The notes under the pieces were generated by a model. It saw only the letters and a program-made list of their open reading frames with translations. It was not told the origin of the DNA and did no database searches. Shown here piece after piece: positions 20,590 through 39,435 of a DNA stretch of 39,435 nucleotides (the first letter of the stretch is position 1; every line of letters begins with the position of its first letter). Source of the DNA: a virus; the IMG/VR virus record IMGVR_UViG_3300020221_000044, positions 1 through 39,435 of that record; one strand, 5' to 3'. The translations under genes were made by a program, and so were the position numbers.

Positions 20590-21813
20590 ATGCCATACAC
20601 AGTAAACAAAACAAGCGTCACAGAATCACCCAATCAATACACGGTGCAAGATTCCGTTTTGAACACCCAAACAGACATAGCATTGATAGGAAAAGGATAC
20701 GCCGGTTATGGCGAGATAGTGGCAGAAAATTTTTTACATATACTAGAAAATTTCAGCAGCGACACCGCCCCTCCGAAACCCATCAAGGGGCAGTTATGGT
20801 ACGACTCACAAACGCAAAAACTTAAAGTTTTCACGGGTACTTCTTTCCAACCAGTGGGTGGGGCCAACTACACGGCCTCATCTCCCGTAGGTTTGTCGGC
20901 TGGGGATCTATGGTTCAGTTCTTCATCCCAACAATTATATGTGAACAATGGTGGAGAGAACATATTAGTTGGACCACCAGCAACCACTGACAGCGGATTT
21001 TCTTTTGAAACTATATTGTCATCCACAGATGCCTCAAAAAATATAACCAAATTAAAAAACAACAACGTGCTGATAGCTATCATAAGCGATGATCAATTCA
21101 CTCCCAAAATTGATATATCGGGATTCCCTGTAATCAAGAAGGGTATAACATTAACAGAAGACATAGCAGGGGTGTCATTCGCCGGTACCGCATCCAGTGC
21201 CAGCAGCCTATTAGGCATAGATCCTAACAATTTTTATCAAAAAATAGGTGGTAATCTTACCGGGAGGGTGAACATCAAGACTGATTTGGGACTGGTGATA
21301 GGTGCCGACGATGACTTTAAAATTGCAGTGGAATCAACAGGCAACGTCTCCATAACCAATAGCACAGACAACGCGGATCTTAGTTTCATAATCAAGGACG
21401 GTGGTATCGTAACCACAGTGATGACCATAGATGGGCCCACCTCGCGAGTGGGTATTGGTACAGTGTCTCCTTCAACAAAATTAGACGTAAGTGGCACGGT
21501 GAATGCCACTGCCTTCACAGGACCGATCACGGGAGTGATCACCACCAACAGTATCGAAGTTACCGACGCTGGAAACATCACATTTGATGGCACCATAGAT
21601 GACAGCAACGGAACTGTGTTGACGGCGGCTGAACCCACAGGAAATAACACGATCACTTTGCCCAACAGATCGGGCACAGTGCTTACCACCGGTGATACAG
21701 GCGCCAATGCCTCCATCAGTGGTAACATGTTCAAAAGCAAGGTCACATTGACCATTTTGGACTCAAGCGGCGCAGTATTAACCACACTGTATGCTCCGGG
21801 ATCTGACACCTAG
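20590..21813 (+). CDS. Tail-fibre-like structural protein, paralogue 1
   Basis: The 407-residue protein shares its first about 130 residues with the products at 27206 and 31282. The shared signature is VNKT, then TDIALIGKGYAGYGE, ENFLHILENF, IKGQLWYDSQTQKLKVF and GDLWF...QLYV. This block is probably the shared baseplate- or fibre-attachment domain. The middle is beta-rich. The C-terminal half has the VGIGTVSPSTKLDVSGTVNA motif common in fibre shafts and ends in strand repeats (NTITLPNRSGTVLTTGD). No autocleavage or chaperone domain is seen. It starts 5 nt after the previous stop without a clear ribosome site. A structural role in the fibre or baseplate periphery is well supported; the receptor is unknown. 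Confidence 0.75.
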   Translation: MPYTVNKTSVTESPNQYTVQDSVLNTQTDIALIGKGYAGYGEIVAENFLHILENFSSDTAPPKPIKGQLWYDSQTQKLKVFTGTSFQPVGGANYTASSPVGLSAGDLWFSSSSQQLYVNNGGENILVGPPATTDSGFSFETILSSTDASKNITKLKNNNVLIAIISDDQFTPKIDISGFPVIKKGITLTEDIAGVSFAGTASSASSLLGIDPNNFYQKIGGNLTGRVNIKTDLGLVIGADDDFKIAVESTGNVSITNSTDNADLSFIIKDGGIVTTVMTIDGPTSRVGIGTVSPSTKLDVSGTVNATAFTGPITGVITTNSIEVTDAGNITFDGTIDDSNGTVLTAAEPTGNNTITLPNRSGTVLTTGDTGANASISGNMFKSKVTLTILDSSGAVLTTLYAPGSDT

Positions 21814-21822
21814 TTTTTTATG

Positions 21823-21851
21823 TTGACAATTTTTTATTATTCTTTTAGTAT
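21823..21851 (+). promoter_or_regulatory. Sigma70-like promoter TTGACA-17-TAGTAT
   Basis: A perfect -35 hexamer TTGACA (21823-21828) is followed after 17 nt by TAGTAT (21846-21851, 4 of 6 consensus bases). The predicted start is near 21858, giving a leader of about 10 nt with AGGA at 21860-21863 before the ATG at 21868. It lies in an AT-rich 54-nt gap. Confidence 0.5.
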
Positions 21852-21867
21852 TTTAAAATAGGATCAC

Positions 21868-22845
21868 ATGGCTGTTAGAACTCCATTATACTTTGACGAT
21901 ACATCACCAGTATCCACTCCCATCTTGAAAGAGATGTCTGCGGGACAGATCAACGAGATCAAAAATGCTTTCAAGCAGTTGTATTTCCAATCTCCTTCGG
22001 TGAGATTAGATGTAGTTCCAGGCGGTGGTGGCAACATGGCATTGCCTGACAGCAGTCTAATGACAGATACCAGATTGGTGGCGGGAGCTTATGCCACAAA
22101 TCCCACTGCTTTCCCAGGAGAGGAAACAACGCAGGAACCACAGATACAGACGGTGGGATATAATAGATTGGATCAAGTGATAGAATCGGTGTCCGAGCCA
22201 ATCAATACCAATAGCATACAATATCCCATATACTATTATACGGACGGATCCTCACAACCAGTTTTAAGATCAATGACGTTGCAGGATATGTATGACACTT
22301 TCGCAGAGCTGGTTGTCACCGACGATCTTTCCGTGGGAGGTGCTGTGTACACAGTATCGACCAGCACGACAGAAGCAGGATACACAGAAGTCAGTGGAGA
22401 TCAAACACCGATCTTTTTAGACACCAGGGCCAATCCAGCGGGCTACAATGCAGGTGAAATTCCAGAAACTGAAGATTCAACAACCACAGAAGAAGTACAA
22501 AATTATTATCTACATAAAAAAAATTACACTACACCTGCCCCTCAAGCACCGTCCAGATTAACTGCGTCAGGCAATATCATTACTCCAACCACAGCAACCT
22601 GGAACACCATCTTCCAATCTATCATACGTTACATGGTGGCCAATGTTGAAGGATATAGGTTGCGTTATTCTATCAATGGCACCGGCTCCACCTGTGGCAC
22701 TGTGATGACAGACACTAGGTTAGAAGGAGGCGCCGGAGTTTATGCGACCAAGTTCGAAAACGCTGATGATTACAGAGCACAAGAATTCCCAGATGGTTCC
22801 AGCACCGTAATAAGCACATACGAATTGAAAGTAAACCAGATATAA
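21868..22845 (+). CDS. Uncharacterised late structural protein with DTR-motif repeats
   Basis: The 325-residue protein begins MAVRTPLYFDDTSPVSTPILKEMSAGQ in two short blocks, a type of N-terminus I associate with virion proteins in the fibre region of marine T4-like phages. It carries three related segments around the tripeptide DTR: MTDTRLVAGAYATNPTAF, FLDTRANPAGYNAGEIPE and MTDTRLEGGAGVYATKFE, suggesting internal duplication. There is no signal peptide or membrane segment, and no enzyme motif. It lies between a fibre paralogue and a small protein, behind its own promoter-like sequence. A structural or fibre-accessory role is inferred from context only. Confidence 0.6.
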   Translation: MAVRTPLYFDDTSPVSTPILKEMSAGQINEIKNAFKQLYFQSPSVRLDVVPGGGGNMALPDSSLMTDTRLVAGAYATNPTAFPGEETTQEPQIQTVGYNRLDQVIESVSEPINTNSIQYPIYYYTDGSSQPVLRSMTLQDMYDTFAELVVTDDLSVGGAVYTVSTSTTEAGYTEVSGDQTPIFLDTRANPAGYNAGEIPETEDSTTTEEVQNYYLHKKNYTTPAPQAPSRLTASGNIITPTTATWNTIFQSIIRYMVANVEGYRLRYSINGTGSTCGTVMTDTRLEGGAGVYATKFENADDYRAQEFPDGSSTVISTYELKVNQI

Positions 22846-22847
22846 TA

Positions 22848-23336
22848 ATGATATTAGAGAATGGTAGATTCACCTATGCTGTGTATGCCAGTAGCAAACA
22901 GAATCTAATTTTTGCCACCTGGTACAGCGAAGATACGAAAAAGCACAATGAGATTGCTGTCAAGACCGATCTAGACAATAATATTTACAAGAAACTATTG
23001 GAGACATTCACCCCGGATGAAATCTATCAAATGACAGACCAAAAGAGGAAATTGAACAGCCAGACTTTTGAGATTTACGTGAAAGATATTGCTTTAAAAT
23101 ATGGCTTGGTCTATGATCCCTTGATACATAATCCTCAGGAAAAATTAACAGTGGACAATCTGTTTAATCCGCCCACCGGAGACGTGGGCACTGATTTATT
23201 GTTCAATTTAAAATTAAAAATATTTGATCTTCCAGAGGTGATACGATCCGAAAATACGGAATTGAAGAAAAAACTACGAGAAGTGAAAACTCCCCTAGAA
23301 TCTCTCTATATAGCAGGAAAATTCTTATACGAATAG
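22848..23336 (+). CDS. Small uncharacterised phage protein
   Basis: The 162-residue product is not assigned to a named family. It opens with beta strands (GRFTYAVYASSKQNLIFATWY), then helices rich in Lys/Asp/Glu, including FTPDEIYQMTDQKRK and a C-terminal segment (SENTELKKKLREVKT) that could form a short coiled coil. It starts 2 nt after the previous stop, so it is probably co-translated with the structural protein. Its 3' end overlaps the end of the converging minus-strand gene by 12 nt. The protein looks cytoplasmic and soluble; a role in virion assembly is only a guess from position. Confidence 0.55.
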   Translation: MILENGRFTYAVYASSKQNLIFATWYSEDTKKHNEIAVKTDLDNNIYKKLLETFTPDEIYQMTDQKRKLNSQTFEIYVKDIALKYGLVYDPLIHNPQEKLTVDNLFNPPTGDVGTDLLFNLKLKIFDLPEVIRSENTELKKKLREVKTPLESLYIAGKFLYE

Positions 23337-24020
23337 ATTATATTTCTCCCACTGATGTGGATGGTTGCTCATGTGGGTAAAGTGTACAAATTTGATATCA
23401 GGATAAAATTCATTACCCAAGAACATGTAAGGATTCCCCGTCACTTCGCTATATTTTTTATTAAGATTAGCCACGGTATGCCTAGAATAAGGTTTGGGCC
23501 TGGCCTCCATCCTACAAAACCAACTGTCAGGCAGCGTGATTAATTTTAGTTTTTCTTTTACGCTGTCTTCGATAAAATGTTGTTCGCCATTGACGGGACC
23601 GCTGGTAAATCCTTCTTCTATATATTTTTTCTGCCAATGTTCCGGACGGCTCATAAACTTGTCATAGATGTAATTGCAATCACGAGGATAATATTTGTAA
23701 AATCCCCCATTGATGTTGAATCTATTTTTTTCTCCTGTCTTGTCTCTCCACCAACCCGGAGCAGCGAGAAATTCTCCTGGGTTAACAGGATATTCAAATA
23801 TTTTCTTGTAATCATTAATAAGCAACACGTCGATATCCATGACACAAATGGGTTCATCCTGTGTGAGAGTCATGCCATACATCTTGTTCCATTGCAACTT
23901 AATGTTATCAGCCATGGGTGCTCTGATCCAATGAAACTCATATTCGGGCAATCTGGATTCTAGATAAGTTTCATATTCTGGACCATATCTGTTGCCTATC
24001 CTGACAGCAATTATCTTCAT
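23325..24020 (-). CDS. Glycosyltransferase-like protein (GT-A fold), end of minus-strand island
   Basis: Starting at the ATG at 24020 gives 231 residues, and that ATG overlaps the upstream stop as ATGA, so I prefer it to a start 21 nt further out. The N-terminus MKIIAVRIGNRYG is a first GT-A strand. D62-I63-D64 in CVMDIDVLLIND is the metal- and nucleotide-sugar-binding DxD motif. A later GFYKYYPRD...RPEHWQKKY region and C-terminal histidines (FVHFTHMSNHPHQW) could complete the metal site, as in other GT-A enzymes. Expected activity is transfer of a sugar from a nucleotide donor; donor and acceptor are unknown. It is the last gene of the island and overlaps a plus-strand gene tail to tail. Confidence 0.65.
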   Translation of the reverse strand: MKIIAVRIGNRYGPEYETYLESRLPEYEFHWIRAPMADNIKLQWNKMYGMTLTQDEPICVMDIDVLLINDYKKIFEYPVNPGEFLAAPGWWRDKTGEKNRFNINGGFYKYYPRDCNYIYDKFMSRPEHWQKKYIEEGFTSGPVNGEQHFIEDSVKEKLKLITLPDSWFCRMEARPKPYSRHTVANLNKKYSEVTGNPYMFLGNEFYPDIKFVHFTHMSNHPHQWEKYNLFV

Positions 24021-24697
24021 TGCCAATAATCCTTGATCCATGAATCAACTTCGTCCTGTTTAGGACCGTTGTTCAATATACACACCTCATAATCGGGCCT
24101 CAGTTTTTCCGGGGTCGTGTCCTTGCCATATTTGGCTCCCTTCCAGTAGGAATAAGCAATGCCAGTGGGCAATAGATCTATCTGCACAGGTTCATGATAT
24201 AGATAGCGATCTATGCCTCGATATTTGAACAGTATCATGTCTTTGTTTTTTTGGAAATAATTATAGATCTCGTCACCTTGATTGTCCTGCCATTTCATTA
24301 TGGATGAATTATATTGTGTGGGATATTTGTTTTCTGGTTTGGCTTTTTTGTGTGGCAACAAGAAACCTTCTTTCCATTGTGAATATAGAATGGACACAGT
24401 TCTTGTTTTAACTGAAAGTAATCTCTCCATTGGCTGCAGAATTATAACATCCAGATCAAAAAAAATGTTGGTATCCCGCCTGAATAATTTGAACAGCTCC
24501 AGTTTGGGCCAATATTGCGTCAAATCAGTCTGCATCGGAATAATTTTGATGGATGGATTAATGTCTTTGCTGTTTTCGGTGTAACAATAAAATGTGAATG
24601 GATGACCACAAATATTTTTTTGTACCATGTTGAACAGCTTGTTCACGAATTGCGCAGAGTATTTTTCACCCCATTTGACACACATTACGTTGATCAT
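24017..24697 (-). CDS. Glycosyltransferase-like protein (GT-A fold)
   Basis: From the ATG at 24697 (ATGA overlap with the upstream stop) the product has 226 residues; an ATG 18 nt earlier is possible but less likely. MINVMCVKWGEKYS is the first strand and loop. D81-L82-D83 in NIFFDLDVIIL is a clear DxD motif, preceded by PKLELFKLF, a spacing common in phage and capsule GT-A transferases. The C-terminus keeps LLPTGIAYSYWKGAKYG and ends next to the coupled gene. It probably acts with the neighbouring transferase on the same glycan, since the two are translationally coupled. The specific sugar is unknown. Confidence 0.7.
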   Translation of the reverse strand: MINVMCVKWGEKYSAQFVNKLFNMVQKNICGHPFTFYCYTENSKDINPSIKIIPMQTDLTQYWPKLELFKLFRRDTNIFFDLDVIILQPMERLLSVKTRTVSILYSQWKEGFLLPHKKAKPENKYPTQYNSSIMKWQDNQGDEIYNYFQKNKDMILFKYRGIDRYLYHEPVQIDLLPTGIAYSYWKGAKYGKDTTPEKLRPDYEVCILNNGPKQDEVDSWIKDYWQ

Positions 24698-25263
24698 ACG
24701 ATTTGATACTCCCATCTTGTGTGCTGATCTATCTGTTTAACGAATTCTTCATCATTTAATTGCCATACCGTCTGATCTGCTCCCCTGTAAAAAACATCTT
24801 TAATCTTTTTTATCACGCCCTGCCTAGACAGCAGGTTGGCCCAGATGCCATTGACTTTCTGCATGCTGGCCTCACACTTGTTGGATGATGTGATGTAATA
24901 TCTGCCATCTTTGGGAAGAGCATTTAATGTCACAGGAATAAAAATTTGAGAACAGATATTTTGATGTTTTGTGATGCCTTCCTTGGTCCTCACGTGTTTG
25001 ATGGGCAATAGTTCTGTCAATACGCAAGTCCTCACGCAAATTCTATAACTGTTTTCTCCCATCACATCGTCGAAATCATGCACAGCGGTTGAACCAACAG
25101 GTTGATTTTTATAAAACAATATCCACAAATCAAAATATCTCTGTCTATCGAAGGAATCGATCAATCTTTTTTGTGATGCGTTGTTGAAAAATCCTTTTTC
25201 TTGGCATCGCTGGTAAAAGAAAGACAAGTCGAGATCATTATTATATTTTTTTATTTCATACAT
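24694..25263 (-). CDS. GNAT-like N-acyltransferase candidate
   Basis: The 189-residue protein resembles a family of marine-phage proteins with a GNAT-like layout. It has an N-terminal helix region (FFYQRCQEKGFFNNASQKR), a strand pair WILFYKNQPVGSTAVHDFDD typical of GNAT beta2-beta3, then RICVRTCVLTELLP and a C-terminal segment with RYYITSSN. The usual acetyl-CoA-binding RxxGxG/A motif is not obvious, so enzyme activity is uncertain. A TATAAT lies 10 nt upstream (25274-25279) without a good -35. The gene sits between a QueC-like gene and two glycosyltransferases, so acylation of an amino sugar would fit. That is inference. Confidence 0.5.
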   Translation of the reverse strand: MYEIKKYNNDLDLSFFYQRCQEKGFFNNASQKRLIDSFDRQRYFDLWILFYKNQPVGSTAVHDFDDVMGENSYRICVRTCVLTELLPIKHVRTKEGITKHQNICSQIFIPVTLNALPKDGRYYITSSNKCEASMQKVNGIWANLLSRQGVIKKIKDVFYRGADQTVWQLNDEEFVKQIDQHTRWEYQIV

Positions 25264-25273
25264 CGCACTAGGT

Positions 25274-25279
25274 ATTATA
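25274..25279 (-). promoter_or_regulatory. Possible -10 box (TATAAT) before the GNAT-like gene
   Basis: On the minus strand TATAAT is followed by 10 nt and then the ATG at 25263. No convincing -35 hexamer lies 16-18 nt upstream. It falls in the 29-nt gap between the QueC-like and GNAT-like genes, the only gap inside the island. Confidence 0.25.
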
Positions 25280-25292
25280 TAATTTTTGATGT

Positions 25293-26099
25293 TTAATTAA
25301 AAGTGTATTTTGTCAAATCAGTTACTGAACTGTTTTTGAAAGCCAATTTCCTATGATGACAATTGCTACAGATGCCACAATTACCAAGATCAACGTCACA
25401 GCTAGTTGATTGATAGAGCATTGATAATTCATTTAATTTATCGTAAAGGTCAATCACGTCAGATGTGGTCAAGTTTCGAAAAGGTCTTACTGACATCTCA
25501 TAATCATTCTTGATTTGTTCATAATCGATATCTTTCAATACACCGTAAATTTTTCCATTGTTCTTGAACACGTGTTCGAACAACTCAGGGTATCTCACTG
25601 AATTTTTTTCCAGCCATGGTTTCAATTTGTCATTGGTGATACGGCCTCTGTGCCAGCCACTTGCCTTCAACATATCCATGCTCTGCTCATGTATCTTGTT
25701 GTAGCCGGCCAGGATGTATTTCATCTTGCCTTTGTATTTCTGCAACAAAAAATTTTTAAATTCTAAAGAGGCATCTGTGTGCTTCTTATAGATTTTTGAA
25801 TCCACTGTGAGTGTATGCACTGCTCTAAACCTTTCAATCCCCTGGGCGAACTTTCTTTTTACAATCTCGAGTTTATCATCGTCCTTATCTTGCGGTAATG
25901 TTCCATCGAAAGAAATTAATTTATCGTTGATGAAAACGACACGTTCCAATCCGTATATTTCTCTAGCTATCACGCACAACAATGTTGATTCAATATCCGC
26001 TTCATATATGACGCCAATTTTTTCGTCTGGAGAGATCTTTGGAAATTCTTCTAGATCAAATCTAGTTTTATTTTTACCTAACAGGTAGAATTTATTCAT
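25293..26099 (-). CDS. QueC-like protein with degenerate PP-loop
   Basis: From the ATG at 26099 (AAAGG 6 nt upstream, 8-nt overlap with the preceding gene) the product has 268 residues. The C-terminus has C234, C241, C244 and C247 in TSCDVDLGNCGICSNCHHRK followed by LAF, the zinc-binding signature of QueC (7-cyano-7-deazaguanine synthase; usual spacing C-x8-C-x2-C-x2-C, here C-x6). VRPFRNLTTSDVIDLYDKL before it fits the family layout. The ATP-binding loop, normally SGGxDS, reads EADIES at residues 33-38 (VIYEADIESTLLCVIA), so the pyrophosphatase chemistry is probably lost or changed. It could be a scaffold, a binding protein or a new activity. No other queuosine gene is nearby. Confidence 0.6.
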   Translation of the reverse strand: MNKFYLLGKNKTRFDLEEFPKISPDEKIGVIYEADIESTLLCVIAREIYGLERVVFINDKLISFDGTLPQDKDDDKLEIVKRKFAQGIERFRAVHTLTVDSKIYKKHTDASLEFKNFLLQKYKGKMKYILAGYNKIHEQSMDMLKASGWHRGRITNDKLKPWLEKNSVRYPELFEHVFKNNGKIYGVLKDIDYEQIKNDYEMSVRPFRNLTTSDVIDLYDKLNELSMLYQSTSCDVDLGNCGICSNCHHRKLAFKNSSVTDLTKYTFN

Positions 26100-27105
26100 G
26101 GTCAACCTTTTCCTTATAATGCCACAAAGTTTTTTGTGGTATCTTTATACCATCAGCCTCAATCACGTGTATCTGCGAACCAGTGCATCTTTGGTGACAA
26201 ATAGATTTGTCATTCTTGTACATGGCTGCCAACCAATCTTGAAACACTGGGTCATTCAATATTTCAAAAATACCACGCTGGTGCAGTGATATTGAATATT
26301 TATCTTTGGATATCGCCCAGCTGTTCACTTTGTTAAATGCGGAGGCAGTCCAACAACATGGGAACAGTCTGCCCCAGGAATCAACATAAATTTCTTTCCT
26401 TTGCTTGTGCAGGCAGATCAATGCGCCCTTGTGCTGCATGAAGTCGATGTCAAATCTGTCTGCTGTGGGAGGATATATTTTTTTTGTTTTATTGTCTCCG
26501 TCGCGATACACAAATGGTTTATCAAAGTCTTTGAATCTCGCGGAAATTTTTAAAACGAAATCTCGAAAACCCATTTCCTTGGCCATGGATTCAGCTGCCT
26601 CCACCTGATGCTCATTGTGGAAGAATGGTATGAAGAACCATTTGGCATTGGCTCCTGTCTGTATGAAGGCTGCAGCATTGCTCATCAGTTTTTGCCATTG
26701 TACTCCAACCCTATAGATATGATTCGTGTCCTCCAGGCCGTCTATATGCCACTCCACAAATGAGTGAGGGGTCCGAGCATAGATGCGACCTAACTTTTGC
26801 CAAAAATCAGTGCTGCGTACTCCACCGTTGGTGCTTAAAGTAATTTGGATATTTGAATTGTGCTCCAAAACGTATTCGTGTATCTGCAACAGATCATGAG
26901 CTATTGCAGGATCCCCATAATTGCCACAAAATTTTATTTTTTTTAATCTACCAATGAATCTTTTGGGAAAAAATTTAACAAAATCTACATAGGATATTTC
27001 GTCCTGATTGTCAAGTATTATTGGGTTATTAGTCCTGGAGCACATGGGGCATTTTGCATTGCAACGGCTTGTGATCTCAACATGGACTGAATCTATTTGG
27101 TGCAT
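26092..27105 (-). CDS. Radical SAM / SPASM-domain protein
   Basis: From the ATG at 27105 the protein has 337 residues. C15-x3-C19-x2-C22 (CNAKCPMC) binds the catalytic [4Fe-4S] cluster and S-adenosylmethionine. FCGNYGDP stands in for the GGEP strand, and LSTNGG is a typical later strand. The C-terminal third has SPASM-type cysteines (GALICLHKQRKEIYVDSWG, LFPCCW, CHQRC) expected to hold auxiliary clusters. The family includes peptide-modifying and sugar- or alcohol-oxidising enzymes; the substrate here is unknown. An ATG at 27120 would add MYNSR, but it lies inside the promoter spacer. The 27105 start would be the first base of the mRNA. First gene of the minus-strand island. Confidence 0.8.
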   Translation of the reverse strand: MHQIDSVHVEITSRCNAKCPMCSRTNNPIILDNQDEISYVDFVKFFPKRFIGRLKKIKFCGNYGDPAIAHDLLQIHEYVLEHNSNIQITLSTNGGVRSTDFWQKLGRIYARTPHSFVEWHIDGLEDTNHIYRVGVQWQKLMSNAAAFIQTGANAKWFFIPFFHNEHQVEAAESMAKEMGFRDFVLKISARFKDFDKPFVYRDGDNKTKKIYPPTADRFDIDFMQHKGALICLHKQRKEIYVDSWGRLFPCCWTASAFNKVNSWAISKDKYSISLHQRGIFEILNDPVFQDWLAAMYKNDKSICHQRCTGSQIHVIEADGIKIPQKTLWHYKEKVDHE

Positions 27106-27111
27106 TCTGCT

Positions 27112-27140
27112 ATTATACATATGTTTATGGCCAATATCAA
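27112..27140 (-). promoter_or_regulatory. Near-consensus sigma70 promoter TTGATA-17-TATAAT for the minus-strand island
   Basis: On the minus strand the -35 TTGATA (27135-27140) and a perfect -10 TATAAT (27112-27117) are separated by exactly 17 nt. Six bases then separate the -10 from the ATG at 27105, so the predicted +1 is the A of that ATG and the mRNA would be leaderless. Confidence 0.75.
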
Positions 27141-27191
27141 GCTAGTTGTTCATTCTCATGAAAAGCACTGAAAACGTTATTTGGCTGCTGA

Positions 27192-27199
27192 AATAAATA
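27192..27199 (+). promoter_or_regulatory. late-promoter-like AATAAATA box before fibre paralogue 2
   Basis: The octamer lies 6 nt before the ATG at 27206, in the 100-nt divergent gap shared with the minus-strand island promoter. If used like a T4 late promoter, transcription would begin at or beside the start codon, consistent with the absence of a Shine-Dalgarno. Confidence 0.45.
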
Positions 27200-27205
27200 C
27201 AAGAT

Positions 27206-28726
27206 ATGGCATACATCGTAAACAAAACAGACGGGTCACAGTTAGTTGTAATCACAGACGGCACCATAGATAATAGCACATCGCTGTTTCTGTTTGGCAA
27301 GAGTTATTCCGGATACGGCGAGTATCTTAATGAAAATTTAGTAAAATTATTAGAAAATTCAGCTGCCACGGCCAGTCCAGCTGCACCATTGCGGGGAGAA
27401 CTTTGGTTTGATACCAATACCAACCAATTGAAAGTGTATGACGGCACTGCGTTCAAGCCCACAGGGGGAGCCAAATCACAATCGGCCGAACCCACAGGAT
27501 TAACACCTGGTGATCTTTGGGTAGACAGCGATGACGAGCAATTATATTTCAGGACGAGTTCAAGCACCTGGCAACTGGTGGGACCAGTATTCACAAAAGG
27601 TCAAACTCTGTCAGGATGGAAGATAGAGACCATCCCCGACAGTTTTGGAAGCAATAGGGTTATCAGCAGCATGTTCAATGGCAACACCAGAGTGGCAATC
27701 TTGAGCACTGCGACTTTCACTCCTGCATCACCACCTACCGGATTCCCAGAAATTTATGCTGGTATAACGATGAGCAGCACATTGGGTGCCACTTTTGCTG
27801 GTACGACTACGACAGCTGCCAACCTAAACACCTCGTCAAGCTCCAATCCATCAGCCACAGTGATAGCCGGCGGCAACATCATGAGAAAAGACGTTTCGCA
27901 GACCATGGCGGGCGTGTTGACGATTTCCTCAGACAGCGGTTTAAGAATTGGTGCAGGCAACGATCTACAACTGACGGTATCAGGTATTGACTCTGTAATT
28001 TCCAACATCTCCCAAGATGGTGACATAGACTTACAGGTCAACAGCGGCGGATCCACGATCTCACCGATCAAGATCGACGCGGCCAATGCCAGAGTGGGTA
28101 TATTCACATCCTCGCCTTCGGTACCATTCGAAGTCACTGGCGACGTAAGAATAGTGGGAAATCTAAGCGTATCTGGGGAATATAACACTACATCTTCGGT
28201 CAATGTGTTGATTGATGACGTGTTCGTGAAATTGAACAACGGCAACGCTTCCAATCTTGACGCGGGCATAATAGTAGAGAGAGATTCTGGAAGAGAAGCA
28301 AAACTTTTTTATAACGCAAGCGCTGGTCATTGGGTAGCAGGCGTAAGCGAGACCGGATCATATTCGCAACTGATAAGGGCAGATGACGCCACTACAGACG
28401 GTAATGCCAACAAAGGAAAAATATTGAAAACAACAGGTGCAGGTAATGTCATAGTAACAAGCATGAATTTAGGCACAGTAGGAACAAATCTATTGGATTC
28501 CGCTACGTCTGTGACAGAATCGCCAAATTTCAGCAGCACCGCCGTGCCATCAAAGGCGCAGGTTACTGAATCTATCACTAGATGGGGAGGCAGTTATATC
28601 AGTGTAGATGGCACGCTTGGAACGCCATTAGGCAACACCATTGCTGGTAGACGCTATGTTGAAACCAGCACGCCAACCAGCGGGCAAGGAAGCAACGGGG
28701 ATCTTTGGTTTGTAAGGGAGCCTTAA
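27206..28726 (+). CDS. Tail-fibre-like structural protein, paralogue 2
   Basis: The 506-residue product starts with the same attachment-type domain as the products at 20590 and 31282: VNKTDGSQLVVITDGT, LFLFGKSYSGYGEYLNENL, LRGELWFDTNTNQLKVYDG, GDLWVDSDDEQLYF. The central part is fibre-like (RVGIFTSSPSVPFEVTGDVR, GDVRIVGNLSVSGEY, VFVKLNNGNASNLDAGIIVE). It ends in GQGSNGDLWFVREP, another LWF strand, with no autoprocessing domain. It is the first plus-strand gene after the minus-strand island, and the next gene starts 4 nt after its stop. Structural fibre role is well supported; receptor specificity cannot be read. Confidence 0.75.
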   Translation: MAYIVNKTDGSQLVVITDGTIDNSTSLFLFGKSYSGYGEYLNENLVKLLENSAATASPAAPLRGELWFDTNTNQLKVYDGTAFKPTGGAKSQSAEPTGLTPGDLWVDSDDEQLYFRTSSSTWQLVGPVFTKGQTLSGWKIETIPDSFGSNRVISSMFNGNTRVAILSTATFTPASPPTGFPEIYAGITMSSTLGATFAGTTTTAANLNTSSSSNPSATVIAGGNIMRKDVSQTMAGVLTISSDSGLRIGAGNDLQLTVSGIDSVISNISQDGDIDLQVNSGGSTISPIKIDAANARVGIFTSSPSVPFEVTGDVRIVGNLSVSGEYNTTSSVNVLIDDVFVKLNNGNASNLDAGIIVERDSGREAKLFYNASAGHWVAGVSETGSYSQLIRADDATTDGNANKGKILKTTGAGNVIVTSMNLGTVGTNLLDSATSVTESPNFSSTAVPSKAQVTESITRWGGSYISVDGTLGTPLGNTIAGRRYVETSTPTSGQGSNGDLWFVREP

Positions 28727-34232: not shown

Positions 34233-34991
34233 ATGTCAGTGGGAGCATTAATCTACTGTTTCGATTCGGATCAATTGCAATATCATCGCGTTGCTAATTT
34301 TTGCATACGTCAGGTCAAAAGAAATCTAGGGCTGCCTGTCACAGTGGTGACCAATGAGGCCACGAGAAAAAACATACAGGAAGCAGATCGATTAGTACTT
34401 GTGGAAAATGCCCGAGGCAATAAGCGTTATTACAAGAACAGACCCATCCCATGGTACAATCTAGAGAGGGCCATGGCCTATGATCATTCTCCGTATGATA
34501 CCACCATACTTTTGGACGCTGATTATTTTGTCTATACCGGCAACTTATTATCATTCACTAACAGCAAATATGATTTTGTGTTGCATGATCGTGTGCATGA
34601 TCTCACCAACAGGGGGAGTTTCCTCTATGAGACAAAGAGCATGATACCCTTGGTATGGGCCACAGTGACTATCTTCAAGAAAACTTCCTTCTCCAGGAAA
34701 ATTTTTGATCTGATACAGCACATACAGCAGCATTATGATTATTTCTGTAACCTGTACAGGATAGAGTTTCGTAATTTTAGGAATGATTACGCCTTTGCAA
34801 TGGCGTTGCATCAGCTGAACGGATTCACAAAACAGTATTTCATACCATCCGCCATGGCCATGTTGCCCATGGACACGCAAATTTTAAAGATAGACGAGAC
34901 GGGATTGATATTCAAACACGACAAATATATGAATTTGATCTCGGATCAGGATGTGCATGTGCTTAACAAGGAGATACCTTTCAATGTCTAA
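34233..34991 (+). CDS. Glycosyltransferase-like protein (GT-A fold)
   Basis: The 252-residue product has a first strand GALIYCFDSDQLQYHRVANF and a donor-site strand with D95-A96-D97 in TTILLDADYFVY, the DxD motif of metal-dependent GT-A transferases. RPIPWYNLERAMAY upstream fits a loop that contacts the nucleotide. The rest (NDYAFAMALHQLNGF, YFIPSAMAMLPMDTQ) has the helix and strand pattern of these enzymes. Products of this type occur in marine T4-like phages without known substrate. It ends 8 nt inside the next gene, so the two are coupled. The call is supported by the motif and fold, not by a known family name. Confidence 0.65.
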   Translation: MSVGALIYCFDSDQLQYHRVANFCIRQVKRNLGLPVTVVTNEATRKNIQEADRLVLVENARGNKRYYKNRPIPWYNLERAMAYDHSPYDTTILLDADYFVYTGNLLSFTNSKYDFVLHDRVHDLTNRGSFLYETKSMIPLVWATVTIFKKTSFSRKIFDLIQHIQQHYDYFCNLYRIEFRNFRNDYAFAMALHQLNGFTKQYFIPSAMAMLPMDTQILKIDETGLIFKHDKYMNLISDQDVHVLNKEIPFNV

Positions 34992-35790
34992 GGGTTTTCT
35001 CTGGTTCGCCCAGAACAATGACAGCACAGATTATGCCAAACTGAGTGTCGCCCTGGCAAGATCAATCAAGAAAAATTGCAAGATTAATAATGTTTGCGTG
35101 ATTGTGGACGAGCATACAAAGATACAGAGCGAATATGTGGACTCGGTGATTGTTTTGAAACAGGATCACAGCCAAGATCAATCATTGAAATTTGCCAACG
35201 AACACAAAGCATTCAAACTATCACCATTCACCCATACCATAAAATTAGAAGCAGACATGCTGTTCACGCACAATGTCGACTGGTGGTGGAATCATCTGTG
35301 TCAGCATGACCTTGTGTTTGCCGTGAACTGTAGGAACTATCAAGACCAGATAATTAAAAAAACTCCTTATAGGAAATTGTTCCATCAAAATAATCTACCA
35401 GATGTTTACAACGGACTGACCTATTTTAGGCGCAGTGAAAGAGCCATGCAATTTTTTAAATTGTGCAAAGCCATTACTGATAATTGGACGCAGGTTCAGA
35501 ATGGGCTATTAATAAATTGCCATGAGCAATATCCCTCAACGGACATTGTGTATTCCCTCGCCTACAGGATCATGGATCCTCTCCAAATGCACTTGATAGA
35601 TTATCCGTGGTTTAAATTCATACATGGCAAGCCTGAAATAAATGGTGTGGCGAATGCTGTAGATCAATACAATTATCTCAATCCAGTTTTCATGGATGAC
35701 AGAATGTATGTGGGAGGACGTAGGTTCGACCGCATTTGGCATTACCATGATAAAAAAATGATAGATATTTTTCATGACAGAATTTTTTAA
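34984..35790 (+). CDS. Glycosyltransferase-like protein
   Basis: AAGGAG at 34968-34973 sets the start at 34984 (268 residues) rather than an in-frame ATG 33 nt upstream. MSKGFLWFAQNNDSTDYAKL begins the fold. E89-A90-D91 in IKLEADMLF occupies the DxD position of GT-A enzymes (an ExD variant). Later parts (DVYNGLTYFRRSERAMQFF, STDIVYSLAYRI) follow the family's pattern of a Gly-containing acceptor loop and Asp. A C-terminal IWHYHDKKMIDIFHD supplies histidines that could bind metal. The next small gene overlaps by 17 nt. A pair of coupled transferases suggests sequential sugar addition. Confidence 0.6.
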   Translation: MSKGFLWFAQNNDSTDYAKLSVALARSIKKNCKINNVCVIVDEHTKIQSEYVDSVIVLKQDHSQDQSLKFANEHKAFKLSPFTHTIKLEADMLFTHNVDWWWNHLCQHDLVFAVNCRNYQDQIIKKTPYRKLFHQNNLPDVYNGLTYFRRSERAMQFFKLCKAITDNWTQVQNGLLINCHEQYPSTDIVYSLAYRIMDPLQMHLIDYPWFKFIHGKPEINGVANAVDQYNYLNPVFMDDRMYVGGRRFDRIWHYHDKKMIDIFHDRIF

Positions 35791-36112
35791 AGCATTAGAT
35801 AGTTTCAAATCTGCACCGCCCGATAATAATTTCTATATGGAAGTTATCGAAACAGAGATAGTGTGTCTGCGTAGAGAAGCCAACAACAACACTGTGAAAA
35901 TTACGCAGGAGCAATATAAGTTTCTGTTAGAGAATGGCATCAATAATTTTATCTATGATGGTTCTATAGGAAAGAAACATAAAAAAAGAACTCACAGAAT
36001 ATTTTCCTTGCTGCGTAAAGACGAAAGAGGGTATAATCTTGAACGTAATGATCCCTATTGGCCTATCGAGGTAGTGGAAGGAGGTTACACATGGCGTACA
36101 CCGTCAGAATAA
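35774..36112 (+). CDS. Small uncharacterised protein between glycosyltransferases
   Basis: The 112-residue product overlaps the 5' gene by 17 nt and the next start by 22 nt. It has strand pairs FYMEVIETEIVCLRREANNN and TVKITQEQYKFLLENGINNF, then a basic stretch GKKHKKRTHRIFS. No known family is recognised. The layout of a strand, EQYK helix and NGI loop recurs in small phage proteins near fibre and modification genes, in my recollection. It could bind RNA or a partner enzyme through the basic region, but nothing visible proves it. Confidence 0.5.
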   Translation: MTEFFKALDSFKSAPPDNNFYMEVIETEIVCLRREANNNTVKITQEQYKFLLENGINNFIYDGSIGKKHKKRTHRIFSLLRKDERGYNLERNDPYWPIEVVEGGYTWRTPSE

Positions 36113-36987
36113 GTGACCTTGACTTTGTTTTCATCAGCTATCGCGAGCCCAACGCCGACGAGAACTACGCTGACCTGTTGAACATAGTGCCCTGGGCCAA
36201 GCGGGTGCATGGCGTTAAAGGATTTGACAACGCACACAAGGCCGCAGCCGAATGTGCAGAAACAGATTTTTTCATCAGCATAGATGGTGACAACAGGATA
36301 GATTCTACCTTTCTGTTGCAGACATTGGACTGGAGCAAGACCAATCCCGCTGCCGTGCATCGCTGGAGGGCGAGAAACATAATCAACGGACTAGTGTATG
36401 GCAATGGTGGACTGGTCGGATGGCCAAAGAAGACATGCCTAGGCATGAAAACACATGAGAATGCAGTGGATGAGCGATCCAAGATAGATTTCTGCTGGAC
36501 CGTGCCACACGAGAACCTGCACAATGTTTATTCAACAACACACATCAATCACACACCAGAACAGGCCTTCATAGCAGGATACAGGGAAGGGGTAAAAATG
36601 AGCCTAGATCGAGGACAGAAAGTTAATCCCAACGGCTTCATGGAGACAATAGAAACTGTAAATTTGAAAACTTTATTGATATGGATGAGCATCGGACAAG
36701 ATGTGGACAATGGCAAGTGGGCGATGCTGGGTGCTAGATGTGGTTGCTACATGGCCACATTGGATACCAACTATGACATCACGTTGGTAAGAGATTTAGA
36801 ATTTATGAGCGACAAGTTTTCTCGCATGATGTATGATATAGAATCTGATATGGCGTCATACGGAAACTCTTTGAGACAGCGCTTGGGGCTGCCTTTGGCG
36901 GACCTCGATGCGGCAGAGAGCAAATTCTATAAGTTCTGCCAACAACCACACAGGAACAAGGGAGTGCAAGATCGTGAAAGCAAGTGA
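36091..36987 (+). CDS. Glycosyltransferase family 2-like protein
   Basis: AAGGAGG at 36078-36084, 6 nt before the ATG at 36091, fixes this start (298 residues) over an upstream in-frame ATG. The N-terminal strand DFVFISYREPNADENYADLL and WAKRVHGVKGFDNAHKAAAE fit a GT2 (GT-A) fold, and D65-G66-D67 in FISIDGDNRID is the metal-binding motif. NGLVYGNGGLVGWPKKTCLG is a plausible acceptor loop. The C-terminal helical part (ITLVRDLEFMSDKFSRMMYD) is unlike the short GT-A proteins above, so it may have a different acceptor. The following radical-SAM gene starts 14 nt inside it. Confidence 0.65.
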   Translation: MAYTVRISDLDFVFISYREPNADENYADLLNIVPWAKRVHGVKGFDNAHKAAAECAETDFFISIDGDNRIDSTFLLQTLDWSKTNPAAVHRWRARNIINGLVYGNGGLVGWPKKTCLGMKTHENAVDERSKIDFCWTVPHENLHNVYSTTHINHTPEQAFIAGYREGVKMSLDRGQKVNPNGFMETIETVNLKTLLIWMSIGQDVDNGKWAMLGARCGCYMATLDTNYDITLVRDLEFMSDKFSRMMYDIESDMASYGNSLRQRLGLPLADLDAAESKFYKFCQQPHRNKGVQDRESK

Positions 36988-38353
36988 TTACAAACACAAT
37001 GCTGATAAGGCACAGAAGAAACTAGATAAAATTAGCCCAAGTTTCTGTCTAGCCAAATGGAATCAGGTGTCACTGCACCTGCCCACGGGACTGACCAATT
37101 CCTGCTACCATCCACCACTCCACGAAATAGATAGAGCAGCGTTGGCTCACAATCCTTCTGCTCTGCACAACACCGCACAGAAGATCTCAGAGAGACGAAA
37201 GATGATGGAGGGGCAAAGGCCCGAAGGATGTTCCTATTGCTGGAATATTGAAGACACCGGAGAGATGAGTGATCGTCATTATCGTAGTGGAGAACCCTGG
37301 GCCATGCAGGATTTCGAAAAGATAACACAGAACCCCTTCAACCCTGCGCACACACCTTCATATGTGGAAGTCAACTTCAACAATGCCTGCAACTTTAAAT
37401 GCAGCTATTGTTCCCCTCAGTTCAGCACCACGTGGGGCAAAGAGATAGATATCTATGGAGAATATCCAACCGAGCCCGCACACAACGCACCCGAACACTT
37501 CATGGGGCGCAGGAAACCAATACCCAACAGAGAAAATAATCCCTACGTGGAGGCGTTCTGGCGCTGGTGGCCGGAACTATACAAGAATTTAAAACATTTC
37601 CGCATGACCGGTGGTGAACCCATGATGGACAGCAACACATATCGGGTGTTTGATTACATTATCAATCATCCCAAACCCGATCTACATCTCAATGTGACAT
37701 CCAACATGTGTCCACCCAGAGACAAATTAAAGGATCAATACTTTGACGCTGTCAAGAGGATGTGCCTGGATGGGAGCATCGAGCACTTCATGCAGTTTGT
37801 GTCCGTGGATGCTCATGGATCTCGTGCCAACTACATACGACACGGCATGAATTACAATCAATTGATGGACAATGTGGATGAATTCCTCACACGCATACCT
37901 GGCCGTAACAGCGTGAGTTTCATTATAACTTACAACAATCTCAGTGTGACGTCCCTGGACAAATTGCTAATAAATATTCGTCAATTGAGGCAGAAACATT
38001 CCACAACCTATCAAAGGATATGGTTTGACATACCTTTGCTGCGCCAGCCGGCGTGGCAGCAGATCACTTTGCTTCCGCAAAGTTATCAGCGGATACATGA
38101 GCAAAACATTGAATATATGAGACAGCATCAAGAGAACACAGAACAGGACAACAAAGATTTTGCTGTGTTCAAGGACTTTGAGATACAAAAGATGCTGCGC
38201 AATCTCGCTTACTGGCGCAAGCACGCTGAAATAGACAAAGCGCAGAAAAAGAATTTTTACGCATTCTTCTCGGAGCATGATCGTCGACGAGGCACAAGTT
38301 TTGAAAACACGTTTCCTGAGATGAAGGAATTTTGGCAGGAGTGTAAAAGTTAA
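36974..38353 (+). CDS. Radical SAM 'twitch'-type protein, copy 1
   Basis: A GTG at 36974, with GGGAG upstream inside the preceding gene, gives 459 residues. The catalytic site is C139-x3-C143-x2-C146 (CNFKCSYC), with RMTGGEPMMD as the GGEP strand and LNVTSNM later. Before it lies an N-terminal block with conserved C25 (SPSFCLAKW), C44 (NSCYHPPLH), C86 and C89 (EGCSYCWNIED), which could hold an extra Fe-S cluster or zinc. The C-terminal helical part contains SFIITYNNLSVTSLDKLLIN. It is paralogous to the next gene. The family occurs widely in marine phages with no known reaction. Coupling with GT genes suggests sugar or fibre modification, but this is not shown. Confidence 0.75.
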   Translation: MKASDYKHNADKAQKKLDKISPSFCLAKWNQVSLHLPTGLTNSCYHPPLHEIDRAALAHNPSALHNTAQKISERRKMMEGQRPEGCSYCWNIEDTGEMSDRHYRSGEPWAMQDFEKITQNPFNPAHTPSYVEVNFNNACNFKCSYCSPQFSTTWGKEIDIYGEYPTEPAHNAPEHFMGRRKPIPNRENNPYVEAFWRWWPELYKNLKHFRMTGGEPMMDSNTYRVFDYIINHPKPDLHLNVTSNMCPPRDKLKDQYFDAVKRMCLDGSIEHFMQFVSVDAHGSRANYIRHGMNYNQLMDNVDEFLTRIPGRNSVSFIITYNNLSVTSLDKLLINIRQLRQKHSTTYQRIWFDIPLLRQPAWQQITLLPQSYQRIHEQNIEYMRQHQENTEQDNKDFAVFKDFEIQKMLRNLAYWRKHAEIDKAQKKNFYAFFSEHDRRRGTSFENTFPEMKEFWQECKS

Positions 38354-38361
38354 GGGATATC

Positions 38362-39435
38362 ATGAACGAGAACGCAGATCTGGAATATCGTAAACAAATA
38401 CTGGACTTATTGAGTCCTAGTTTCTGTGGAGCCAAATGGTACAACGCCACCATATGGTTGGGATCCGGCATGACTACCAGTTGCCATCATCCACCTGCAC
38501 ATCAAGTGGATGTGGAGAAATTACGACACAATCCAAGATTGTTGCACAACACTCCTCAGAAGAAACAAGATCGCGCTAAAATGATTGCCGGCGAGAGGCC
38601 CGCGGGCTGCGAATACTGCTGGAAGATAGAAGACATGGGCAGAGATGCCGTGAGCGATAGAGTTTACAAAAGCAAAATTTATCCAACGGCAGATCTGGAA
38701 CGGGCATTCAGCACTCCCATCACAGAGGACGTTAATCTTAAAACACTGGAGATTGCTTTCGACAGGACCTGTAATTTCGCCTGTTCCTATTGCAATCCTG
38801 CTTTCAGCACCACGTGGGTGAGAGATATAAAACAACATGGTCCTTATAAAAATTTGATATCAGATGGTAGGAATCATTTCACTCATCCTCATGATGGTGC
38901 GCAATTGTACAAAGACACAGAGGAAAATCCCTACGTTGAAGCTTTCTTTAGATGGTGGGAAACAGATCTGCACAAGACCTTGGACGAGCTGAGGATCACA
39001 GGTGGAGAGCCCATGATGAGTCCTTCCTTGTGGAGATTGTTGGATTGGTTTGAAACTCAGGGAGAACGTATCAATCCTAAAATGCGATTGGCCATTAACT
39101 CTAACCTAGTGCCCAAGGCAGAATTGTTTGCAAAGTTCATAGATAAATGTCGGAAAATAAAAAATCTACACATCTATACGTCCAATGAATCCACGTATGC
39201 CCATTCGGATTATATCAGAGACGGCATGGACTATTCTGGCTGGTATGGCAATTTTGCCAATATCATCAATCAGATCAGACCGGCCGGCCTTCACAACATG
39301 TGCACCATTAATGCACTGTGTCTTGAATCACTTCCCGAATTCCTAGATGTGATAGTAAGAAATAAATTAGATGCCAAGAGGGTGTATGGGGTCAATGTAA
39401 ATTTCACCTTGAACATACTGAGATTTCCTAGTTTC
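38362..39435 (+). CDS. Radical SAM 'twitch'-type protein, copy 2, truncated by window end
   Basis: The frame starts at ATG 38362, 8 nt after the previous stop, and stays open to the last base (358 residues seen). It repeats the plan of copy 1: C22 (SPSFCGAKW), C41 (TSCHHPPAH), C83 and C86 (AGCEYCWKIED), then C137-x3-C141-x2-C144 (CNFACSYC) and RITGGEPMM. Between the copies the N-terminal region is clearly homologous, while the parts after the radical-SAM core differ more. Two adjacent copies suggest related but distinct substrates or a heterodimer. The 3' end lies outside the window. Confidence 0.75.
   Translation, partial: MNENADLEYRKQILDLLSPSFCGAKWYNATIWLGSGMTTSCHHPPAHQVDVEKLRHNPRLLHNTPQKKQDRAKMIAGERPAGCEYCWKIEDMGRDAVSDRVYKSKIYPTADLERAFSTPITEDVNLKTLEIAFDRTCNFACSYCNPAFSTTWVRDIKQHGPYKNLISDGRNHFTHPHDGAQLYKDTEENPYVEAFFRWWETDLHKTLDELRITGGEPMMSPSLWRLLDWFETQGERINPKMRLAINSNLVPKAELFAKFIDKCRKIKNLHIYTSNESTYAHSDYIRDGMDYSGWYGNFANIINQIRPAGLHNMCTINALCLESLPEFLDVIVRNKLDAKRVYGVNVNFTLNILRFPSF

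Follow-up and report, generated by a model that had tools for sequence, protein, structure and literature searches.

A glycosyltransferase pair linked to two fibre-region genes of a T4-like phage, with variable tailoring enzymes: a candidate decoration module

Pelagimyophages and cyanomyophages carry a host recognition cluster (HRC), a hypervariable structural stretch with fibres, GT8 transferases and radical S-adenosylmethionine (radical-SAM) cassettes; in the parts of the account available to us, its glycosyltransferases are interpreted as modifying the host O-chain (PMC7029224). We studied a comparable region in a 39,435-base virus record (IMG/VR IMGVR_UViG_3300020221_000044, called the window throughout) of a marine T4-like phage, with baseplate wedge PHROGs upstream. 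Five minus-strand open reading frames (ORFs) at 23325-27120, picked out in a preliminary description, were confirmed there as an enzyme cassette: RSAM, QUEC, GNAT, GTb and GTa. The two glycosyltransferases, GTa and GTb, form a steady core with two plus-strand genes, g8 and g9, and the radical-SAM, QueC-like and GNAT genes make up a variable part.

As in the HRC, the window has baseplate wedge genes upstream, three fibre-like paralogues (TF1, TF2 and g18; TF1 is 35-37% identical to the other two), glycosyltransferases and variable content. It differs from that cluster in that a steady core and a swappable part could be resolved. The HRC is already published. The available portions of the HRC account mention neither the g8/g9 linkage nor a QueC-like gene (PMC7029224), and no description of the core was found in the open-access literature searched.

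The same core occurs in an isolate, the Pelagibacter (SAR11) phage Mosig EXVC030M, on Pelagibacter ubique HTCC1062, the published culture of which contained two phages. All four core genes and RSAM have homologues in Mosig, where the enzymes are convergent with g8/g9. There, the fibre-like Mosig_00098 is followed by g8 (Mosig_00097, 39% identity), an epimerase gene and g9 (Mosig_00095, 30% over 119 aa), and Mosig_00082 to Mosig_00094 lie on the opposite strand, including the homologues of GTb (Mosig_00094), GTa (Mosig_00092) and RSAM (Mosig_00084). In contrast to the window, its annotated set is larger (nitroreductases, a carbamoyltransferase, an aminotransferase and a methyltransferase) and the epimerase separates g8 from g9. 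GNAT had no blastp match among 19 Mosig proteins, a set that excluded Mosig_00073, annotated as an N-acetyltransferase. Likewise, o5 (1916 aa) and o4 of the window had no blastp match to Mosig's annotated VrlC, which together with the neck gene gp14 bounds the HRC. Among 50,697 phage records, g8 matched Mosig only and g9 gave no tblastn match; QUEC had no tblastn match in any phage record.

Glycans are also carried by virion proteins of mycobacteriophages, as far as the citing source reports (Freeman 2023, cited in PMC12619734). That system differs in that capsid and tail tube are glycosylated, whereas here we propose a fibre-region protein and tailoring by radical-SAM, QueC-like and GNAT enzymes. 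A search of open-access literature with fibre-glycosylation phrases returned no phage paper, judged by title and abstract, among the matches listed.

The genes of the cassette and its two partners are as follows.

26092..27120, minus strand: RSAM, radical-SAM protein; alternative start 27102; CxxxCxxC motif, and at the C-terminus a short cysteine set of SPASM type
25293..26105, minus strand: QUEC, QueC-like/PP-loop protein; ATG start 26099; EADIES in place of SGGxDS, four zinc-type cysteines kept
24694..25263, minus strand: GNAT, predicted GNAT-fold acyltransferase-like protein (AlphaFold2 model and Foldseek)
24017..24715, minus strand: GTb, predicted GT-A type glycosyltransferase with a DLD motif; likely start 24697
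23325..24041, minus strand: GTa, predicted GT8-like glycosyltransferase (GT-A, DxD motif); start probably at 24020; convergent with g9
22848..23336, plus strand: g9, 162-aa partner gene linked to GTa/GTb; homologue Mosig_00095
21868..22845, plus strand: g8, 325-aa repeat protein of the structural region, proposed acceptor; homologue Mosig_00097

A scan of IMG/VR with g9 gave 57 loci, 43 of them testable once ten that were too short and four without a g9 ORF of at least 70 aa had been set aside. GTa or GTb was present within 6 kb downstream of g9 in 42 of the 43, with L173 as the sole exception; the glycosyltransferases of these 42 loci were on the opposite strand in 32, on the same strand in 8 and mixed in 2. 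In 41 of the 43 loci, g8 was found upstream of g9. At 90% g9 identity the loci fall into 26 clusters, 25 of which have the glycosyltransferases. The linkage was also seen from the other side. A scan with GTa found 99 places, of which the best 80 were kept (79 loci); among these, both g8 and g9 were present in 61 loci, one of them in 8 and neither in 10. When we considered the 46 GTa loci flanked by 6 kb or more on both sides, both were present in 41, one in 4 and none in 1. Within 6 kb of GTa, these well-flanked loci contained GTb (45), g9 (39), g8 (36), any radical-SAM gene (34), QUEC (19) and GNAT (8), and nine of them had g8, g9 and GTb within that distance with neither a radical-SAM gene nor QUEC. 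All these counts come from related loci, some from one virus, and the GTa and GTb profiles cross-match.

Thus, the enzyme set is not a random accessory collection: a glycosyltransferase pair is tied to g8/g9 and accompanied by variable tailoring. Scattering of the five genes over unrelated contexts, which would have counted against the preliminary description, was not seen for GTa and GTb; the other three vary in presence.

The cassette lies between two fibre-like paralogues, as first described, but the two plus-strand neighbours g8 and g9, which occupy the interval from TF1 to the cassette, had been overlooked. The flanking features are:

20590..21813, plus strand: TF1, first fibre-like paralogue, bordering the island on the left (phrog_14394, virion structural, 1.2e-9)
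27206..28726, plus strand: TF2, second fibre-like paralogue, bordering the island on the right (PHROG search and identity to TF1)
27112..27140, minus strand: promoter-like TTGATA-17-TATAAT, overlapping the RSAM start
27193..27199, plus strand: ATAAATA motif directly 5' of TF2

The TF1-TF2 interval measures 5.4 kb. The tight junctions reported earlier hold with internal ATG starts: RSAM and QUEC (ATG 26099) overlap by 8 nt, QUEC and GNAT are 29 nt apart, and GNAT/GTb (24697) and GTb/GTa (24020) are joined by ATGA. The 3' end of GTa is convergent with g9, with a 12-nt overlap. The G+C content of the cassette is 38.3%, that of the window 43.6%.

Scans with QUEC, RSAM and GNAT yielded 2, 23 and 7 loci, several of which share contigs. 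Two contigs, 3300021091_005099 (113,993 bp) and 3300021093_000080, are 100% identical to the window genes where compared and are effectively the same virus. The five genes keep their order and site in L006-L010 and L018, with two added ORFs between GTa and g9 in L010. L011-L017 are without GNAT and have a 377-397-aa protein with a methyltransferase C-terminal part between GTb and GTa. More distant islands carry adenylylsulphate (APS) kinase, sulfotransferase, ketosynthase, rubrerythrin-like or Asp/Arg-hydroxylase-like genes. In L020 (5556-7307), the adenylylsulphate kinase and sulfotransferase genes adjoin GTa and GTb, so a further tailoring step may be sulfation. We also considered a GNAT-like N-terminus of the X1 protein; at 10-18% identity it was unsupported.

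The site can also be empty. In nine relatives measured, TF1 is joined directly to TF2, with a 10-bp gap in six and a 20-nt overlap in three. Since TF1 and TF2 of these loci are only 44-59% identical to those of the window, the change may have been either a gain or a loss. A scan with g6 gave at least 599 places, of which 80 were kept; most of the nearest, island-bearing kin are missing from these, so they give no estimate of frequency. Among the 80 listed, 75 had no island gene in the stretch covered (some incomplete) and five had one. All five have g8, and GTa/GTb are confined to them. Further listed loci resemble the nine measured ones at the TF1-TF2 junction. In L080 and L081, g9 was detected by profile. 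We found no repeats flanking the island, only short internal ones in 21700-27400. The window contains no tRNA, and the Pfam and PHROG matches include no integrase. The cassette had been called mobile and accessory. It is a linked set, and relatives lack it at this site, but none of these elements was found and the unit that is gained or lost includes g8 and g9; 'mobile' here means gain or loss and gene exchange only.

We tentatively favour a module that decorates g8 and whose tailoring enzymes can be swapped. The five enzymes would be the minus-strand half of this module, built on the core of g8, g9, GTa and GTb. GTa and GTb, as soluble GT8-like transferases, would assemble a short glycan on g8, which is a repeat protein from the structural operon that we assume to reach the virion, and g9 would be a partner required for this glycosylation, as adaptor or chaperone. 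RSAM, the QueC-like protein and GNAT would serve as interchangeable tailoring enzymes that alter the sugar or its attachment. This would give the virion fibre a lineage-specific decoration with an effect on adsorption or protection. Several observations argue for this proposal: linkage on either strand and in the isolate Mosig, the counts by which g9 predicts the glycosyltransferases and GTa predicts g8/g9, the presence of GTb with GTa, the variability of the tailoring genes, and the restriction of GTa/GTb to g8-bearing loci among the g6 loci listed. Mycobacteriophage virion glycosylation, as reported in the source cited above, offers a precedent. A simple hydropathy scan of the five cassette proteins revealed no membrane-like segment (top 19-residue mean 1.38), which fits a cytoplasmic protein acceptor.

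Additionally, we compared evolutionary distances of six genes, GNAT being left out, in 14 phages (15 were tried, and L024 was dropped for ambiguous RSAM paralogues). The g8-GTb distances are coupled more closely than the remaining genes account for (partial Mantel r 0.45, p 0.0005, uncorrected), which we also count for g8 decoration. Within g8 itself, the first and third thirds are related (hhalign 90%, 1.5e-6). The g8-like proteins of L020, L023, L043 and L050, whose islands also have glycosyltransferases, have tandem repeats of TGYYTG type close to their C-terminus (those of L050 are short), and this repeat region is a possible acceptor. The interior of g8 contains an imperfect 30-bp palindrome at window positions 22334-22363.

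Other observations weigh against a module acting on g8. The g9 scan started from g9 sequences of loci that carry the enzymes, and g8 has no family match in Pfam or PHROGs. Among the 15 gene pairs, g8-GTa coupling is absent (r -0.19) and g8-QUEC coupling weak (r 0.28, p 0.02); adjacency alone may explain the strongest coupling, that of g9 with GTa (r 0.70). L031 has QUEC, GNAT and g8 with no glycosyltransferases, RSAM or g9. A g21-g26 block with radical-SAM genes occurs in many g6 loci without g8/g9 among those listed, so fibres can have enzymes nearby in the absence of g8/g9 as well. Transferases of the lipopolysaccharide (LPS) core are soluble too, so the absence of membrane segments does not discriminate. 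Finally, a fibre linked to receptor-altering enzymes is equally predicted if the target is the host surface.

The best AlphaFold2 model of GTa (pLDDT, the predicted local confidence, 75; pTM, the predicted template-modelling score, 0.79; the other four models had mean pLDDT of 62, 57, 55 and 51) matched LARGE1 (1.3e-6) and LgtC (3e-6) in Foldseek, with a TM score of about 0.5. D69 and D71 of its DxD motif are invariant in 14 sequences. GTa is thus predicted to have a GT-A fold, which it shares, along with DxD, with GT8-type transferases such as LgtC, GlyE and LARGE1; it differs from them in sequence, with about 12% identity. GTb, which matches phrog_1962 (glycosyltransferase, 1.3e-11) and has D87, L88 and D89 invariant in 14 sequences, had no PDB sequence match; its relation to GTa (hhalign 96.6%, 6e-10) predicts the same fold. 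GNAT found no support as a GNAT by sequence in Pfam or PDB. Its best model (pLDDT 80.5, pTM 0.79; the other four had means of 75, 57, 57 and 55) resembles GNATs in Foldseek (PaiA, E 4e-6, TM about 0.5), so a GNAT fold is predicted and acyl transfer is putative. The GNAT and GTa models were built on shallow alignments of 7 and 14 sequences, respectively.

The main alternative, which we rate as somewhat unlikely, is that the enzymes remodel the host surface: LPS core or O-chain would be altered during infection against superinfection, and the fibres would be linked through the same receptor. This agrees with the published view of GT8s in the pelagimyophage HRC, in the parts available (PMC7029224), and sugar-nucleotide-type enzymes lie in a near-identical record. 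The GTa model also resembles LgtC, which we take to be an LPS transferase. The minus strand and the promoter-like site would permit early expression. Over 19.4 kb there are 56 sigma-70-like matches, where 45.4 were expected (sd 7.7); TTGATA-17-TATAAT (27140-27112) is the best of them, and an equally good match arose in 1 of 3000 simulated 111-nt sequences. The same arrangement is retained, by eye, in L004, L006, L007, L009, L010 and L018; L011 and L012 have TTGCTG as the first hexamer, and L013, L014, L015 and L017 have TTGACA-17-TATAAT farther upstream. If ATG 27120 is used, TATAAT coincides with RSAM codons 2-3, so the site fits a promoter only with the RSAM start at 27102 and an almost leaderless transcript. 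The promoter ascribed to the cassette in the preliminary description is a candidate that would depend on that start. The ATAAATA motif before TF2, which is visible in L006-L012, L018 and L031 where printed, presumably resembles a T4 late promoter. In the window the enzymes may be timed differently from the virion genes. As a general rule, however, the different schedule suggested earlier does not hold: among 39 GTa loci with g9 within 6 kb, the enzymes are on the strand opposite to g9 in 23 and on the same strand in 16.

These 16 loci also speak against a host-surface role, as do the absence of membrane-type enzymes from the cassette in the hydropathy scan and the specific attachment of GTa/GTb to g8/g9, which general host modification does not require, though none of these points is decisive. 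Our slight preference for virion decoration comes from the link to a single protein pair, whichever strand the enzymes occupy. HRC glycosyltransferases have been read as tools against the host surface, in the available parts of PMC7029224; the fixed linkage to a fibre-region pair makes self-decoration a testable alternative.

A more specific proposal, which we consider doubtful, is fibre-specific protein modification: the transferase pair would place a glycan on a virion fibre protein, radical-SAM and QueC-like enzymes would then change it, and tailoring genes swapped singly between lineages would give a different non-host chemistry at the tip of each phage.

The profile of QUEC matched LarE (5e-7, PP-loop part), QueC (2e-5, zinc part) and Cap9 (0.016), with a Pfam score of 18.5 against PF06508 (cut-off 22). 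Like the QueC family (QueC, Cap9 and QatC), it has a PP-loop-type N-terminal part and four zinc-type cysteines. It differs in the sub-cut-off score, in its glycosyltransferase and fibre neighbours, and in the phosphate loop, where SGGxDS is replaced by EADIES. Among 24 QUEC sequences, near-duplicates included, SGGxDS is intact in 4 and the four cysteines are kept in 23; in the window the first spacer is 6 rather than the 8 of C(x)8CxxCxxC. Between the window and L006, DNA identity is 59% in QUEC and 82-84% in the other four cassette genes, with the change at the ends of the QUEC gene, and in the 14 phages the median distances of QUEC and g8 are the largest (1.24 and 0.78; the others 0.20-0.40). 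Such single-gene divergence could reflect either exchange or fast evolution. The ratio of nonsynonymous to synonymous substitutions (dN/dS) of QUEC, 0.14-0.36 in 7 of 11 pairs where computable, indicates constraint. Because of the missing SGGxDS and its divergence as a single gene, QUEC is QueC-like and not a proven QueC. Should it nonetheless act here, the protein-modifying role recently described for the QueC scaffold in bacterial defence would reach phage virions as well. Coevolution of QUEC with g8 was considered and rejected: the partial correlation given above is weak and uncorrected, and there are counterexamples (window-L006, with QUEC distant and g8 close; L014-L015, the opposite).

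It is improbable that the region is just an accessory-gene hot spot of an HRC, where the genes are loosely associated and no single product is shared. Gene content does vary widely, and QUEC diverges or is exchanged alone. On the other hand, glycosyltransferases accompany g9 in 25 of 26 clusters, and dN/dS is far below 1 for all five cassette genes wherever computable.

Still less probable is radical-SAM peptide or protein chemistry, in which RSAM, with QUEC, would modify a peptide or protein as in ribosomally synthesized and post-translationally modified peptides, and the transferases would glycosylate the product. RSAM matched PF04055 (5.2e-6, 27.2 bits, cut-off 29.5) and SPASM (0.0027, 18.4 bits, cut-off 21.5) below threshold, and NCBIfam N_Twi_rSAM (2e-12) under its cut-off; these sub-threshold matches thus include SPASM/twitch peptide maturases. 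The CxxxCxxC cluster motif is present, with C20, C24 and C27 invariant in 13 sequences, and the SPASM region presumably has fewer cysteines than the full auxiliary-cluster motif. The RSAM profile had no match to PDB sequences at 0.01. Cap9 couples a nucleobase to the N-terminus of a protein, and a similar action is proposed for QatC, in the available text (PMC13279940). Changing the SGGxDS serines of QatC abolished defence, according to the sections available (PMC13329287, PMC13279940), so the window QUEC, with EADIES, may have altered chemistry of this type or none. Against peptide chemistry, the gaps in the cassette (at most 29 nt) leave no room for a separate precursor gene, overlapping or distant small ORFs being outside that statement, and nine of the 46 GTa loci have g8, g9 and GTb within 6 kb but neither a radical-SAM gene nor QUEC.

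QueC-type enzymes and glycosyltransferases modify DNA in other phages, yet synthesis or glycosylation of a hypermodified base is very improbable here, as no FolE, QueD, QueE or DpdA match was found among the cassette proteins, to which the search was restricted, SGGxDS is lost and the linkage is to tail-region genes.

We also considered RSAM as a viperin; the PADLOC match (8e-5) is weak and probably reflects the radical-SAM core common to both. One genome-contig scan revealed seven radical-SAM kin of RSAM, 31-36% identical, in marine proteobacterial metagenome-assembled genomes (L034-L040). By eye, these loci look chromosomal, with housekeeping surroundings; most have a methyltransferase-like ORF next to them, and pheS/pheT- and ilvE-like genes are close by. 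Their neighbourhoods had no glycosyltransferase match, and this lead to a bacterial origin says little about function.

A second enzyme block lies on the plus strand at 34233-39435 and includes the radical-SAM genes g25 (36908-38353) and g26 (from 38362); these genes, at 36908-39435, had been missed in the preliminary description. Upstream of g25, g21, g22 and g24 look GT-A-like by eye, and profile comparison with GTa/GTb and with Pfam/PHROGs gave no support for them as glycosyltransferases. In Campylobacter phage F379 (L149), an annotated run of radical-SAM, amidinotransferase and nucleotide-diphospho-sugar transferase genes follows baseplate and tail lysozyme genes, a suggestive parallel only. 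Past the end of the window, the near-identical longer record (L147) encodes three more radical-SAM proteins, a cupin, a carbamoyltransferase (2e-53), a nucleoside-diphosphate (NDP)-sugar-epimerase-type protein (7e-42) and a DegT aminotransferase (5e-61), so this phage carries sugar-type enzymes. Two GT-A transferases with tailoring enzymes are most naturally read as a pathway for a modified sugar or surface group, as originally suggested, and the carbamoyltransferase, epimerase and aminotransferase of this record add to it.

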